NCBI GenBank assembly: GCA_900316575.1
Contig: ONDJ01000001.1
Span: forward strand, 62,001-126,000
DNA length: 64,000 nt
Direction: 5' to 3'
DNA from: an uncultured Prevotellaceae bacterium
GTDB taxonomy: Bacteria; Bacteroidota; Bacteroidia; Bacteroidales; Bacteroidaceae
A program made the position numbers and the translations under genes. Of this stretch, positions 5,041 through 20,332 are shown in pieces (the first letter of the stretch is position 1; every line of letters begins with the position of its first letter). The notes under the pieces were generated by a model, which had not been told where the DNA came from, ran no database searches, and was given only the letters and a program-made list of their open reading frames with translations.

Positions 5041-5556
5041 TCATGCTCGGGTGAGCATTTCGTAGCATCGGAAGAGTTCGCTGACGATTTGCTCCTCGGT
5101 GGCGTTTTCACTTAGTCCATAAAGCGCGAGCACGGTGCGGTCGTTGGCTTGGTGTGCTCGGCGCAGTGCTGGGGGCATGGTGAGGTCATCGTAGAGGTCG
5201 GCGAGTGTGCTGTCGGGATACTCGGCGCGGGCATCAAGGATGGCTTGTGCTGTTTGGGTGAGGAGCGTTATTGTTGCAGGCGAGGACGCCTGCGCTCCCA
5301 ACGCTTGCGGCCAAGGGAAGTTGTTATAAACCACGTCTTTGGAGTAGCGATAGCGCATCTCAAGCCTACCGCATACGGCGCGCAACCATGCCATGTGCAC
5401 ACTGCTGGTCAATACAGCAAAGTGAGCAAGCGTGGCGTTGGGGATGATAAATACAAGGTTTGACGCAATGGCTTCGCTGTCCATGAAACCGATCGGGACG
5501 TATAAACGTCGTTCGCTACTGACGCTTGGCACAAGGAGGTAGTTGGTAGTAGGCAT
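5041..5556 (-). pseudogene. C-terminal fragment of a type IIG (MmeI-like) DNA methyltransferase
   Basis: The 171-residue frame matches only the last part of class I SAM-dependent methyltransferases of the MmeI/YeeA type, normally 900 residues or more. Recognisable pieces are VPSVSSERRLYVPIGF, IIPNATLAHFAVLTSSVHMAW, RYSKDVVYNNFPWP, TAQAILDARAEYPDSTLADL and MPPALRRAHQANDR. The catalytic NPPY motif and the SAM site are absent. The fragment begins five bases after the LysM gene stop, so the front was deleted. A copy of a dispersed palindrome (5274-5301) is inserted in frame, adding GAQASSPAT in place of the usual linker. A functional short protein is unlikely. Confidence 0.78.
5274..5301. repeat. 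dispersed palindromic repeat, copy 1 (in frame in a decaying gene)
   Basis: It reads TTGCAGGCGAGGACGCCTGC then GCTCCCAA, with the hairpin AGGCG/CGCCT. It matches the inverted copy at 39942-39969 in 27 of 28 bases, and the hairpin at 9081-9124 in its core. Confidence 0.6.
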
Positions 5557-5560
5557 GTTT

Positions 5561-7072
5561 TCAGCGCACGCCGATCAAGTCGATGGCACGGGCTTTCTTG
5601 AAGTGCATCAGCCAGATGTTGGTATTGACATATCCACCTGTTGGATGGGTTCTTTCAAAACGCAAGTGGGACTGCACGCCCGCAATGTCGCGCGCCTCTT
5701 GCCCGTGGTACTGCGAGCCATGGGTGAGGAAACCGCTCATGGTCTGCAAACCAACGTCGTAGCCCAATGTACCGTAGCGGGGATAGAACGCGAGGAGGTC
5801 GGTGTGGTAGCGGTCGCGATATTTGCGCACAAAGACTTTTACCTGATCGTCATAGGGGTTATAAAAGGCGGGGCAGAAGAGGTATGTGTCGCAGGCGTAC
5901 CACGTCATGCGGTCTTCGTCTTGATACTTTTGCCAATCGGGATACGCCAAGAGGCTGGTGCTTAGTAGCGGCATGTCGGCACGCAGGCGGTCGAGGCGTT
6001 TGATGACGGCGCGATAGGCTGCTTCGTCGCTGCCATCGGGCACAAAGAGCACACGGTCGTGACGACTGAACACGTTGAGCAACTGGGCATCGGTGAATGC
6101 TGTGGGCAAGGTGGTAAACGTAGCACCCTGCGCGGCGGCCTTGGCCTTGAGTGTCTGCACAAAAGCGGCCTCGTTGGCCGAGGTGGTCTGAAGCACCACC
6201 AGGTGGGTCGTGCCAAACTGCCGCGCGATGACCTCGGCGGCGGCACGGTTGCGATAGGCCTCGGGCGTATTGACCACATAGACGGCGGGATTCTGCTCCA
6301 CTTCCGCCACTTTGCTGCTAAAAGGCACCACAAGCCGCACACCGTTGCGCCGTGCATAGTCGGCCAGGATGGGGAAGTGGGCGGGATAGAGCGGCCCATA
6401 AATGATGTCAAACTGATTGCTTCGCAGTTTGGCAAGAAGGTCGGTGAGCGTTGGGTCGTTGGGGTACTCCTCGCACACATATATATATACGGAGCGTCCC
6501 TGCCGCTTGAGTTCGTCGGCTGCGAGGAGCAAACCATTGTAGAACTCCACGCAGCGTTCCACCTCGGGACGGTTGGCTTTGAGCGGCAACACCACTGCCA
6601 CACGCACACCCATATTCCACGCGGGCTGCGTGGCGGGCTGACCGCCAGCCGGTATAACCAGCGTTGCCCCGATGGGCAACACATAGTCGGGTGCTGACAT
6701 GGGCGGATTGGCGGCGCGCAGTGCCTCGACCGAAATGCCATAGCGATGGGCTATGCCCCAAATGGTCTCGCCCGCCGCAACGATATGCGTACCAGCGGCT
6801 ATAACGGGCGCAGCTGGCTGCACAGATGTGGCTGCCTCGCGGGTAGAGGGAATGTTGATAACCTGACCACGGCGGAGATTTCCTGGAGTGAGCCCTGGAT
6901 TGGCAGCCAAGAGGTCGTCAATCTTCACGTCAAAACGGCGGGCTATGCCATAAATGGTCTCCTGCGACTCTACGGTGTGCTGAATATAAACGCTCTGAGC
7001 CATGACGCTCAGGGGCAGAAACAACAAGAGGCAACACAACACTGCTGTTGCCAGAGGGCTAAACTTTTTCAT
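5561..7072 (-). CDS. LysM-domain protein with periplasmic-binding-protein fold
   Basis: This 503-residue exported protein has a signal peptide (MKKFSPLATAVLCCLLLFLPLSV... ending AQ), two LysM peptidoglycan-binding repeats (residues about 30-75 and 94-142; YGIARRFDVKIDDLLAANP and WGIAHRYGISVEALRAANP), then a type-1 periplasmic-binding fold (about 155-500; AVVLPLKANR, FYNGLLLAADEL, IIYGPLYP). Bacteroidetes carry many such proteins annotated as amino-acid-type substrate-binding proteins, but no permease is nearby. A cell-wall-anchored sensor or scaffold is as likely as transport. It lies upstream of the methyltransferase fragment in the same direction. Confidence 0.83.
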   Translation of the reverse strand: MKKFSPLATAVLCCLLLFLPLSVMAQSVYIQHTVESQETIYGIARRFDVKIDDLLAANPGLTPGNLRRGQVINIPSTREAATSVQPAAPVIAAGTHIVAAGETIWGIAHRYGISVEALRAANPPMSAPDYVLPIGATLVIPAGGQPATQPAWNMGVRVAVVLPLKANRPEVERCVEFYNGLLLAADELKRQGRSVYIYVCEEYPNDPTLTDLLAKLRSNQFDIIYGPLYPAHFPILADYARRNGVRLVVPFSSKVAEVEQNPAVYVVNTPEAYRNRAAAEVIARQFGTTHLVVLQTTSANEAAFVQTLKAKAAAQGATFTTLPTAFTDAQLLNVFSRHDRVLFVPDGSDEAAYRAVIKRLDRLRADMPLLSTSLLAYPDWQKYQDEDRMTWYACDTYLFCPAFYNPYDDQVKVFVRKYRDRYHTDLLAFYPRYGTLGYDVGLQTMSGFLTHGSQYHGQEARDIAGVQSHLRFERTHPTGGYVNTNIWLMHFKKARAIDLIGVR

Positions 7073-15994: not shown

Positions 15995-16243
15995 ATTTTG
16001 TATTGCGCGCCGTTTGTGTGGCTTTGGCGTGTGCCGCCCTCCGGGGCAGGCACCACGCCGCAGCCCACACGAACGGCTACGATAAACACACGTTCTTTTT
16101 TCTTTTTTTCCTCTTTCTCTTTTCTTTTCTCCTTTACTATAAAACTATAGAGAGAAACCTTAAACTATGGAGCAAGCACTAGGCGCAGCCCGTAGTTGAA
16201 GTACCTGAAGTCGGGAAAGCCGTCGTAGCGAAAAGCGACACGG
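15995..16243. repeat. 250-bp direct repeat, copy A (hairpin, T-rich tract, FGE gene end)
   Basis: It aligns with 17071-17320 over its whole length. The outer 200 bp (hairpin, polypyrimidine tract, and the final codons plus stop of an FGE gene) differ at only a handful of sites. The remaining 53 bp (16191-16243) differ at about a dozen codons, the variable-region pattern described in the findings. Confidence 0.85.
16009..16077 (-). terminator. long hairpin downstream of FGE-fold gene 1
   Basis: GCCGTTTGTGTGGCT at 16009-16023 pairs with AGCCCACACGAACGGC at 16062-16077, and the interior (GGCGTGTGCCGCCC against GGGCAGGCACCACGCC) pairs around TCCG. This imperfect stem of about 30 bp lies 90 bp past the stop, beyond a polypyrimidine tract. 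It is probably a terminator; a cruciform role in DGR homing is an alternative. Confidence 0.55.
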
Positions 16244-17043
16244 CAGTTCTGCGCGTAATTGAACCAGCTACCACCACGAAGCACGCGGTAGGAGGCTGAC
16301 TGCGTGTTGCACGGATTGGAATTAGGGCTATTACCATAGTAAGAAGAACTATACCAATCTTGGCACCATTCATAAACATTGCCACTCATGTCGTAAATGC
16401 CAAGTTCGTTAGCCTGCTTCGTACCAACGGGATGTGTTTGCGTTCCCCCTTGACTCATATTGCTGTTGCCATCATACCATGCCACATCATTAATATTGTT
16501 CGAACCGCTGTACTTATACCCTCGGCTTTTACTACCGCCGCGAGCCGCGTATTCCCACTCGGCCTCGGTGGGCAGACGAAACTTCCAATGAGGATAATCA
16601 CCAAGGTCCATTTCATTACGGCGATTGTTTAAACGATTGATAAATTCTTGGCAATCATCCCACGAAACATTCTCTACGGGAAGTTCGCGCCAGCGGCTAC
16701 TAAAGGCAGAGTTACTACCTTGAAAGTCGGAAGGATTTGTACCCATCACGTCATACCATAAGCCTTGGGTAACTTCTGTTTCACCGATAAAAAAATTACC
16801 AACGGAAACTCGGTGCGCAGGCTTTTCGTCACTATCAGCTTCACTGCCTTGTTCACTTGTGGCTCCCATCATGAACGTGCCACCCTCAACAGGAATCAAC
16901 GGATAGATGAGACGATTTGTGACATGAACTTCAAGACGCTCCATGTTTTGAAACTGACGCTGTGGGCGAGCCAAGGAAAGAAATAACAGCAAGCTTATCA
17001 ATAAACTTGGAGATGTAATAAGAAGAATGTGTTGACGTTTCAT
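16165..17043 (-). CDS. FGE-fold (SUMF1/EgtB/PvdO) protein 1, putative DGR target
   Basis: This is a 292-residue protein with an N-terminal membrane anchor (residues 6-25) and an FGE-sulfatase/C-type-lectin-like domain about 50-292 (EGGTFMMGAT, IGETEVTQGLWYDVMG, VENVSWDDCQEFI, RLPTEAEWEYAARGG, GIYDMSGNVYEWCQDWY, RVLRGGSW). No sulfatase is nearby, so a ligand-binding role fits better than sulfatase maturation. Residues 269-284 (V-A-F-R-Y-D-G-F-P-D-F-R-Y-F-N-Y) hold the variable positions. Nearly every variable codon ends in C or T, and compared with the remnant at 17242 only first and second bases change. The gene ends in the shared sequence GLRLVLAP-stop. Confidence 0.85.
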   Translation of the reverse strand: MKRQHILLITSPSLLISLLLFLSLARPQRQFQNMERLEVHVTNRLIYPLIPVEGGTFMMGATSEQGSEADSDEKPAHRVSVGNFFIGETEVTQGLWYDVMGTNPSDFQGSNSAFSSRWRELPVENVSWDDCQEFINRLNNRRNEMDLGDYPHWKFRLPTEAEWEYAARGGSKSRGYKYSGSNNINDVAWYDGNSNMSQGGTQTHPVGTKQANELGIYDMSGNVYEWCQDWYSSSYYGNSPNSNPCNTQSASYRVLRGGSWFNYAQNCRVAFRYDGFPDFRYFNYGLRLVLAP

Positions 17044-17084
17044 ACACTATTTTGCTTTATTGTATATTATATTTTGTATTGCGC

Positions 17085-17154
17085 GTCGTTCGTGTGGCTT
17101 TGGCGTGTGCCGCCCTCCGGGGCAGGCACAACGCCCAAAGCCCACACGAACGGC
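17085..17154 (-). terminator. long hairpin in repeat copy B
   Basis: GTCGTTCGTGTGGCT at 17085-17099 pairs with AGCCCACACGAACGGC at 17139-17154. It is the counterpart of the hairpin at 16009 and lies just downstream of the orphan variable-region remnant and upstream of the FGE gene 1 start. Confidence 0.5.
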
Positions 17155-17241
17155 TATAGTAAACACGCTTTCTTTTTTTCTTTTTTCCTCTTTCTCTTTT
17201 CTTTTCTCCTTTACTATAAAACTATAGGGAGAAACCTTAAA

Positions 17242-17320
17242 CTATGGAGCAAGGACTAGGCGCAGCCCGATGAAGTTGATCCTGCAGTCGGGATCGAGGT
17301 AGTCGCGATGAGCGGCACGG
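17242..17320 (-). pseudogene. orphan variable-region remnant of a third FGE gene (repeat copy B 17071-17320)
   Basis: Only the last 26 codons of an FGE gene remain, ending at TAG (17242-17244). It reads RAAHRDYLDPDCRINFI and then GLRLVLAP, against RVAFRYDGFPDFRYFNY and GLRLVLAP in gene 1. The surrounding 200 bp are nearly identical to 15995-16190. Upstream of 17320 the similarity stops at once. It is either debris of a deleted target gene or a duplicated landing cassette. It is not the DGR template: many variable codons lack A at positions 1-2. Confidence 0.7.
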
Positions 17321-17370
17321 TGATAAACTTCATTTGTAGCATGTCTCTTTCTATTATTTATTTTTTTCGA

Positions 17371-17545: not shown

Positions 17546-18370
17546 CTACAGCGCCAAGCGGAAGCCAAGGCTGCCGTAGCGGGTGCCGGGCGAGTTCCAG
17601 TAGCGATACGCGACGCGGCAGCTCCTGGCATCGCTCCACCCGCCGCCGCCACGATCGACGCGGTACGAGCCCGAAGTAGGACCCTGCGGATTCGTCTGCG
17701 CATTAGAAGAGTAAGAGCCATACCAATCTTGACACCATTCCCAAACGTTGCCACTCATGTCGTAAAGGCCAAGTTCGTTAGCCTGCTTCGTCCCGACAAC
17801 GTGAGTCTGATTGCCACTATTACCATCATACCATGCTACGTCCCCGATGTTGTTCGAACCGCTGTATTGATAGCCACGGCTCTTATTCCCACCACGTGCA
17901 GCATATTCCCACTCAGCCTCAGTAGGCAGACGAAAACGCTGACCAGTCATCTGATTGAGTCGCGAAATAAAGCGTTGGCAGTCGTCCCACGAAACTTGTT
18001 CCACGGGATTGCGGCTGTTGCTCTTGTTTTTACTCGGATTTTCGCCCATTACATGTTGCCACAAGGCTTGCGTCACTTCAAAGCGCCCAATGTAGTAGTC
18101 GCCAAGCGTCACGCGGTGCGTGGGACGTTCGTCGCTGTCGGGATTTTGCTGCTCACTCGTGGCACCCATCGTAAACGTACCGCCATCAACTGGCTCGAGC
18201 ACAAGGTCGGGAATGCCTGCCATACGACTGAAGTCCAATGCGGCGTGCTGACGCTTCAATTCATTCACCTCTGTAGTCAGCGAACTTCCCCAAGGGCGAA
18301 ACGAATGCAGCGAAGTCAAGGCTACTATCAGCAACGAGGCTGGTAATAAAAGATATACGTGTCTTTTCAT
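17546..18370 (-). CDS. FGE-fold (SUMF1/EgtB/PvdO) protein 2, putative DGR target
   Basis: A 274-residue paralogue of protein 1 with the same layout: membrane anchor (residues 6-23), coiled linker, FGE domain about 58-274 (DGGTFTMGATSEQ, YIGRFEVTQALWQHVMG, VSWDDCQRFISRLNQ, RLPTEAEWEYAARGG, YDMSGNVWEWCQDWYG). The last 35 residues (RGGGGWSDARSCRVAYRYWN, SPGTRYGSLGFRLAL) keep the R-V-A-x-R-x4-P-x2-R-x4-G frame of the variable region but with different residues at the x positions. The final codons differ from gene 1 (GFRLAL), so it would need its own template. It starts 36 bp after the kinase gene and is probably in one transcript with it. Confidence 0.83.
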   Translation of the reverse strand: MKRHVYLLLPASLLIVALTSLHSFRPWGSSLTTEVNELKRQHAALDFSRMAGIPDLVLEPVDGGTFTMGATSEQQNPDSDERPTHRVTLGDYYIGRFEVTQALWQHVMGENPSKNKSNSRNPVEQVSWDDCQRFISRLNQMTGQRFRLPTEAEWEYAARGGNKSRGYQYSGSNNIGDVAWYDGNSGNQTHVVGTKQANELGLYDMSGNVWEWCQDWYGSYSSNAQTNPQGPTSGSYRVDRGGGGWSDARSCRVAYRYWNSPGTRYGSLGFRLAL

Positions 18371-18406: not shown

Positions 18407-20332
18407 TTATCGGAAGTCCATCGTGCGTCGATTAGAATTGCTACTTCCCGAGGATGAAGAAGCATTGCCCTGCGAAGAGGTCGAGGAGGCTCCACTGCTT
18501 CGGAAGTCAAGCGTTTGGCGCGAAGAATTACGACCCGAGGAAGTTGAAGCATTAGAAGTATTGCTTTGTGGTCTCGCTGTTGAATGGGAAGCAGAGGAAG
18601 TGTTGCTTGAACTTGTATAAGCGTTGCCGTTATTTGCGCTACTTGCCTGCGAGCGTGAAGAACTCGAGGTTCCTGCGGTGTTTTGGCGCGTGGACTGGGA
18701 ACGGTTTGACGAAGCGGCGGGCGCGGTCGTGGTTTGTCGGCCTGAATTGGAAGGCGCTGCACCAAGGGGTTCGGGAGCGGCTGAAGGAGCTGGGGTGACG
18801 GGCGTTTCGTTGGCGAGGGTGTCGGCGGGCTCCACTGCGGTGCTGTCAAGCGTAGTACTGTCGGCGGCTTCGTCTAAGGAATAGGCAGGTGCAGCTTCAT
18901 TGCCGCAGCTGCGGAAGGCGAGGACACCGCCTATAACGAGCACCATGCCTGCGAGCACGGAAAGGAGCAGCATGCGGCTTGACTTTCGTTTCTCTTGCGG
19001 GGCGATCGGCGTTGCGGGCTGGGGCGCGGGCTTTGGCCGCTCATTGGGGTTGGTGACGATTTCGGAGTCGCTGTAGTAATCGGAGTTATCGGAGTAATCC
19101 GAGTTTTCCGAGGGATCAAAAGTTCCGCCATGGCTGGCGTCACTATCGGGCGCGTCTTCGGGCTTGGGAGCAGGTTGCTGCGGTTTGGGCTGCCGAGGCG
19201 TTGGTGCGGTGGGTGCCACAACGATTGACTTTGCTTCCTCGGGAATAACGATCGACTTTGCTTCCTCGGGCTCTTCGGCGGGATCAATGGGCTCGCCTGG
19301 AACGAGTGGCACAGAGTCGTCTTTATTCTCGTCGAGGGAGAAGAGCGGTTGGGGCACGGGCTCGTTGCTGGGGGTTGGAGGCGTAGCGGGCGCGGAGACT
19401 GCGTCGGGGTTGATTTCTATGACTTCGGGCGCAAGGCAGCGATCGGAGGGGTTGGTATGGTTGAGTTCGTAGAGTGCCTCTGGCACGCTGTGCGGCCGTT
19501 TGGATATGTCGCTCTGCATACAGTGGAACACAAAGGCACGCACACTAGGATCAGCCTCGTCTAAGCCGACGAATGCACTTTCTTTCTTCATTCCCAACAC
19601 ACTGGGCGAAGGGGGTTCTTTGCCAGTGAGGAGGTTGTAGAGCGTGGCTCCCACGGCGTAGAGGTCGGTCCATGGGCCGATGAGCTCCAAGTCGCGATAC
19701 ATCTGCTCGGCGGGGGCATAGCCTTTGGTATAGAGGATGGTGCTGCTGAGGGTGTTGCCATCGGGTCCGCCTATCATTTTGCTAGCGCCAAAGTCGATGA
19801 GTATGGCGTTGTCGTACTTGTCGAGCATCACGTTGGCGGGCTTGAGGTCGAGGTGGTAGAGCCCTTCCTCGTGCACCACGTCGAGGGCTTGGAGCACTTG
19901 GCGGACGTATTTCACGGCCTGCTGCTCGGTGAGCTGACCGGCACGCTCGTTGAGCGAACCGCCCGAGATGAAGTCCATCACGTAGTAGCTCGTATGGTTG
20001 GCATCGAACACGTCGCTCACGCGAACGATGTTGGGATGTTTGAGCTCGTTGATGCGGTCGGCTTCGTCGCGAAACTTTCGGCGCAGTTTTTCGAAGAGGG
20101 CAGCGTTGTCTTGATTGCTGACGATGACGCGCGAGGTGTGTTGGTCGCGATGGGTGATGCCGTTGAGGAAAAACTCTTTGACCACCACGCGGCCTTTCTT
20201 TCCCGAGAACTTGGTGTCTTTGGCCAGATAGGTGTTGCCACAGCCGCCGCTCGAGAGATAGCGTTCGATGCGATAACGTCCTTCGAGCAAGGTGCCGGCG
20301 GGGAGCATGTTTGTTGGGTTGATTTTGGGCAT
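18407..20332 (-). CDS. transmembrane Ser/Thr protein kinase (PknB-like) with Ser-rich extracytoplasmic tail
   Basis: The protein has 641 residues. The kinase domain spans about 16-290: Gly loop LSSGGCGNTY (26-35), Lys52 (VVKEFF), catalytic loop HLDLKPANVML (160-170), DFG 180-182, and APAEQ (206-210) in place of APE. A Pro-rich/acidic linker (300-450) leads to one membrane helix (about 454-473) and an Ala/Ser/Thr-rich tail. The tail ends in two copies of R-(Q/R)-T-(L/M)-DFR, the last at the C-terminus, which could be phosphorylation or docking sites. FGE gene 2 follows 36 bp downstream, which suggests the kinase and the variable proteins work together; that is inference. Confidence 0.87.
   Translation of the reverse strand: MPKINPTNMLPAGTLLEGRYRIERYLSSGGCGNTYLAKDTKFSGKKGRVVVKEFFLNGITHRDQHTSRVIVSNQDNAALFEKLRRKFRDEADRINELKHPNIVRVSDVFDANHTSYYVMDFISGGSLNERAGQLTEQQAVKYVRQVLQALDVVHEEGLYHLDLKPANVMLDKYDNAILIDFGASKMIGGPDGNTLSSTILYTKGYAPAEQMYRDLELIGPWTDLYAVGATLYNLLTGKEPPSPSVLGMKKESAFVGLDEADPSVRAFVFHCMQSDISKRPHSVPEALYELNHTNPSDRCLAPEVIEINPDAVSAPATPPTPSNEPVPQPLFSLDENKDDSVPLVPGEPIDPAEEPEEAKSIVIPEEAKSIVVAPTAPTPRQPKPQQPAPKPEDAPDSDASHGGTFDPSENSDYSDNSDYYSDSEIVTNPNERPKPAPQPATPIAPQEKRKSSRMLLLSVLAGMVLVIGGVLAFRSCGNEAAPAYSLDEAADSTTLDSTAVEPADTLANETPVTPAPSAAPEPLGAAPSNSGRQTTTAPAASSNRSQSTRQNTAGTSSSSRSQASSANNGNAYTSSSNTSSASHSTARPQSNTSNASTSSGRNSSRQTLDFRSSGASSTSSQGNASSSSGSSNSNRRTMDFR

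Follow-up and report, generated by a model that had tools for sequence, protein, structure and literature searches.

The window analysed here, a stretch of 64,000 nucleotides from an assembly of 34 contigs that is 91.8% complete (G000), carries two FGE genes and the remnant of another, and the question it raises is which process rewrites the C-terminal ends of such genes while sparing their third codon positions. The earlier note on this DNA had proposed the adenine-specific mutagenesis of a diversity-generating retroelement (DGR). The 3'-terminal part of FGE gene 1 (minus strand, 16165-16243) was aligned codon by codon to the remnant (17242-17320); 11 of the 18 codons of the block differ between them, and not 12 as first counted. 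Position 1 and position 2 account for 9 changes each and position 3 for none; every variable codon ends in C or T as well, so that both of these earlier statements hold. Extending the count through the stop codon gives 12 differing codons in 26; the additional difference (GTG/GTC) is at a third position and falls outside the 18-codon block. The duplicated 3' flank was fairly described as almost unchanged, since only ~8% of it differs (13 mismatches and one gap in the 171 columns past the stop codon). The remnant starts inside the variable block, the 100 bases just upstream being unlike the FGE gene, and the remainder of this class B target gene is missing (Table 1). Where the remnant meets unrelated DNA upstream (17242-17350, minus strand), a short reading frame in a shifted phase arises that looks signal-peptide-like by eye and is probably accidental. 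The flank past the remnant contains an imperfect 22-base inverted repeat (17087-17152; 77% complementary, 22-base loop), perhaps a terminator, unlike the matching flank after FGE gene 1, which is not listed as an inverted repeat.

Table 1. Features of the window around the FGE genes (positions counted from the first base of the window)
Feature	Position	Strand	Basis
FGE gene 1, 292 aa, FGE-sulfatase fold, class B target	16165..17043	-	Pfam PF03781, E 2.8e-52
Variable region of FGE gene 1, 29 codons, RGG...G	16192..16278	-	Block and codon comparisons
Remnant, 3' end of a second class B target	17242..17320	-	Variable-region fragment, conserved end and stop
3' flank of FGE gene 1, duplicated after the remnant	15995..16164	-	Direct repeats D1/D4 and alignment
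3' flank of the remnant, copy of the FGE gene 1 flank	17071..17241	-	Direct repeats, alignment
FGE gene 2, 274 aa, FGE fold, class A target	17546..18370	-	Pfam PF03781, E 4.1e-48
Variable region of FGE gene 2, 29 codons	17567..17653	-	Block comparisons
Ser/Thr protein kinase gene, 36 bases upstream of FGE gene 2; probable partner of FGE gene 2	18407..20332	-	Pfam Pkinase, E 2.2e-33

The same footprint was found genome-wide in G000, where 15 FGE-domain matches were obtained, some of them pieces at contig ends. Codon alignment and all-pairs comparison placed six FGE genes (seven FGE domains) and the remnant in three template classes: class A, with FGE gene 2 and two contig-end genes of the same genome that have its block in common (L027 and L030); class B, with FGE gene 1 and the remnant; and class C, with L032 and both FGE domains of a kinase-FGE fusion protein (L022/L026). 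Within a class, third positions differ at ~19-60% in the bodies and at 1-4 of 26-30 in the C-terminal blocks. Thus, 77 of 148 body third positions separate FGE gene 2 from L027, as against 2 of 26 block third positions, and 14 first or second positions of that block are changed; for the fused class C domains, the least diverged class pair, the third-position counts are 35 of 189 (body) and 2 of 30 (block). Four pairs of equal length (three of class A, one of class C) show 1 or 2 third-position differences in 26 within the block against 23-60% in the bodies (Fisher p = 1e-5, 7e-8, 0.03, and 3e-5); the L027/L030 pair is only weakly significant, and its body also has a 26-codon window without third-position change, both of which count against the DGR reading. 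The third class C sequence, of 30 codons with one extra, was included in the codon alignment and omitted from the adenine-site and Fisher tests. Since third positions are alike between genes whose bodies have widely diverged, the blocks appear to have been copied from common templates. The class C fusion (L240:5171-7714) is an 847-aa protein with a Ser/Thr kinase domain and two FGE domains, each with a class C variable block. Several G000 contigs are broken within FGE genes (ends of L241, L242, and L238; start of L237).

A whole DGR is present in G012, a genome of the same genus, with an FGE target, an HRDC gene (PF00570; overlapping the RT gene by 4 bases according to the coordinates), a reverse transcriptase (RT) with the motifs GLPIGNLTSQ and YMDD, an A-rich template, and then a Ser/Thr kinase gene on one strand. 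The best 90 bases of this template contain 13 AAC/AAT codons. Relative to the template, the core target is changed at 15 of 28 A's and at 0 of 50 other bases; for a second target, located on a different contig, the counts are 17 of 28 and 0 of 50. The third target, L180, is changed at 18 of 28 A's and also at 9 of 50 other positions, which counts against the pattern; because of these non-A differences, L180 may belong to another template. In all, seven FGE-type DGR loci have an RT motif and a template (G012/L039, L016, L019, L070, L089, L105, and L140), unlike G000, in which neither was found. The set of adenine positions was taken from these seven real templates of relatives, each with the RT motif in the same locus. 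The variable sites of G000 fall on 50 of 77 A sites and on 14 of 130 non-A sites, the latter counting against strict adenine specificity (p = 4e-16). The sites thus track template adenines, and the earlier note was right on the mechanism. Most template peptides of the seven loci read RGGSWNNN...NRNNNxPDNRNNNLG and align with the blocks of the window. The template deduced in the earlier note from the window was largely correct: over 13 of its codons it matches the L089 template of a named relative (AAT CGT AAC AAC AAC AAT CCC GAC AAC AGG AAC AAC AAC) bar one synonymous base, the following codon being CTT and not a fourth AAC. Its second codon was guessed as GAC; none of the seven templates seen has an A position there.

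Altogether, adenine-directed mutagenic homing is supported as the sole explanation, among those considered, that fits. We are highly confident that both FGE genes and the remnant are or were targets of an FGE-type DGR, rewritten by such homing from shared templates. In the proposed mechanism, the RT would copy an A-rich template RNA with misincorporation at adenines, and the cDNA would replace the final ~90 bases of each target. Positions 1 and 2 of AAC/AAT codons would thereby be randomised during homing, and repeated homing from a common template would hold third positions alike between genes. A cassette of the G012 type presumably acted in G000. The competing view, that no DGR was involved and that paralogues underwent gene conversion together with diversifying selection on the ligand-facing end, could draw on the many paralogues, some with near-identical stretches. 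We consider it very improbable: gene conversion would homogenise positions 1 and 2 too, selection would not spare third positions given the widely diverged bodies, and the variable sites match template adenines.

The third-position pattern expected from mutagenic homing extends beyond G000. Blocks were read in 15 of the 58 genus genomes, picked mainly for having several FGE genes among the matches listed, and 68 blocks were obtained from 14 of them, G080 yielding none; FGE matches of the other genus genomes and the long type (profile positions 61/62-255) stand outside this count. Of 131 equal-length pairs from within one genome, 29 show no more than 6 third-position differences in 26. Counted over 130 pairs of 29-codon blocks, the distribution has these 29 in a hump at 0-6, then 8 pairs spread over 7-9; all others lie between 10 and 24, most often at 16-17. 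The 29 low pairs are spread over six genomes (G008, 14; G079, 6; G000, 4; G012, 3; G019, 1; G069, 1). In a body-window control on these pairs, which had been selected for few third-position changes, 0 of 3,415 windows was as extreme as the pair's own block. The low third-position divergence of the blocks exceeds chance. Between genomes, 34 of 1,477 pairs stayed within the same limit of 6 third-position differences.

Two cases stand out by their freshness. Three G008 genes have 0/26 third-position differences among their blocks. Moreover, one orthologous FGE gene of G008 and G019, two species (L235:9154-10029 and L236:396-1277), is near-identical over ~600 bases except in the variable block, its 150 body codons (450 bases) differing by 2 bases and its 26-codon block by 13, and the N-terminal part being more diverged. 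Other matching stretches in its surroundings are ~76-89% identical, bar one 52-base inverted stretch, and the locus sits between core genes with no RT nearby.

The family sample consisted of 298 genomes at ≥95% completeness with G000 added, G012 (94% complete) not being among the genomes with a match. Thirteen candidates per genome were scored, and weak cases may be missed; within these limits, 17 of the genomes had target-level matches (E 1e-4) and none a template-level match, the best reaching 53.3 bits. Nine of the 17 were read at this step, G000, G004, and G081 having been read earlier, and G229, G257, G271, G325, and G360 were left unread; an upstream-motif filter dropped one G089 block (L248) and chance matches of G131. 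Footprints were found in G324 (10 of 10 pairs), G270 (1 of 1), G089 (1 of 1), and G294 (2 of 15), all 99% complete.

Where, then, is the machinery? The G000 assembly gave no RVT_1 match and no match to the DGR RT profile A1 even at E 0.01. Class A and class B template patterns with ≤3 mismatches retrieved only the three and two variable copies, respectively, and template profile R1 gave 8 target-level matches and no template-level match, class C being covered by the profile alone. These negatives count against the DGR reading. The earlier note had held that its reading would fall if neither an RT nor an A-rich template copy existed in this genome or in close strains: both are missing from G000 as assembled, at 91.8% completeness, and both are present in G012 of the same genus. 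Across the 58 genus genomes, a G012-type RT was found only in G012 (E 2e-177; next, 7e-34), as was a template-level match (95.7 bits; the next, at 53.9 bits, being its own target). No G012-like RT was found in G324, G089, G270, or G294; G324 does have an RT, a distant one. In G131, a decayed FGE-type template fragment (L259, about 5480-5600) sits in 12 kb devoid of RT motifs, and the best RT match of the whole genome is distant (E 1.9e-25).

Other candidates were set aside. The RTs L002, L003, L005, L006, and L007 of the same genus look, as we read them, like group II intron RTs. In G004, G006, G028, and G072, RT matches are accompanied by DGR-like RT motifs or by A-rich repeats of different types, which are not FGE templates; in G270, G123, G336, and G268, too, RT matches have A-rich repeats of a different type close by. 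Loci L044, L045, L265, L257, L258, and L260, from several same-family genomes, show such AAC/AAT-rich repeats, not FGE-like, by their RT matches. Hairpins after the stop codon are known from some DGRs. As a homing signal here, a downstream hairpin gained no support from enrichment past the stop codon: over the next 120 bases, the perfect stems of 31 footprint genes do not exceed those of 52 other FGE genes in length (p = 0.27).

We tentatively entertain the loss of the machinery, the targets then being relics of a DGR that worked until recently. Neither RT nor template was found in G000, and nine of the ten same-family footprint genomes lack matching machinery, including the four at 99% completeness, the exception being G012, which has both. 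The decayed template fragment of G131 would also fit, and a precedent is published for T. denticola isolates (PMC4891356). Against loss, the 0/26 among the three G008 genes and the G008/G019 orthologue (2 body versus 13 block bases) require recent activity, so that the losses would be many and recent.

It is about as plausible that the DGR is present and active in G000 and was missed through gaps in assembly or binning. MAGs can miss accessory regions, G000 is incomplete, five of its contig ends lie inside FGE genes, three of them with an identical 99-base end, and the complete cassette of G012 belongs to the same genus. Absence from nine genomes, four of them 99% complete, is nevertheless unlikely by random omission alone.

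It seems unlikely that the RT and template are carried by a mobile element that is gained and lost, or are supplied in trans from elsewhere than the chromosome, while the chromosomal targets stay. Matching machinery in one of ten footprint genomes, and the position of the G008/G019 target among core genes away from any RT, would agree with such a supply. Against it, plasmid and phage records match the G012 RT at <60% identity throughout (best, ~35% among the matches listed), viral contigs match it at ≤36%, and no mobile genes stand out by eye around the G012 cassette. A mobile origin of the G012 RT was set aside, no close relative being found among phages, plasmids, and viral contigs. A related and doubtful idea is that the targets form a standing, vertically kept sensor repertoire, the cassette being a transient or external helper that rewrites many targets and is then gone; if so, variable genes would greatly outnumber machines.

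Targets without machinery are not new. According to the T. denticola report (PMC4891356), DGRs of this species have several FGE-fold targets per genome, many of them lipoproteins, HRDC accessory genes overlapping the RT gene, and adenine-directed changes, as here. The same report describes isolates with 2 to 6 targets and neither RT nor template, which its authors regard as likely leftovers, and the G000 set is a further instance of such orphan targets. What differs is the lineage, the three template classes in one genome, the kinases beside or fused to targets, and the duplicated remnant. Multi-target DGRs and DGRs with broken RTs (PMC3521204) as well as sulfatase-modifying-factor targets (PMC6642488) are already in print. 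A literature search by titles and abstract openings found no paper on Bacteroidales FGE targets without machinery. The third-position test makes DGR activity readable from the paralogues of one genome, with no need for template or RT, and RT-anchored surveys will miss genomes like G000. If the machinery is truly absent from 99%-complete genomes with fresh footprints, DGR gain and loss become a testable question.

The products are probably secreted or surface proteins of the FGE/C-type-lectin fold with a varying C-terminal part. The solved structure closest in sequence to FGE gene 1 is TvpA (2y3c, E 9.5e-41), which is the variable protein of the T. denticola DGR, the best true FGE in the PDB being at 4e-23. 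With an FGE-sulfatase domain nearest TvpA and a variable C terminus, its product is, as judged from sequence, of the TvpA kind. By eye, FGE genes 1 and 2 encode N-terminal hydrophobic signal-like segments. Two other FGE copies have lipoprotein starts with an acidic run after the cysteine, which we take to resemble the Bacteroides surface-export signal.

Related Ser/Thr kinases occur upstream of FGE gene 2, at the contig end of L032, fused to the class C domains, and by the G012 cassette; the kinase upstream of FGE gene 2 and that of G012 are 33% identical over 663 columns (blastp, low-complexity filter off). By analogy with cyanobacterial DGR kinase-CLec proteins (PMC7517822), the FGE targets would probably be variable ligand sensors feeding kinases. 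In the cyanobacteria, too, target paralogues are scattered, many of them tied to Ser/Thr kinase domains, and vary at the 3' end; the genomes surveyed there contain DGR components, unlike G000, where RT and template were not found. Among named sequences, those closest to FGE gene 1 come mostly from Bacteroidales MAGs, many of them from animal guts, so the bacterium itself probably also comes from an animal gut.
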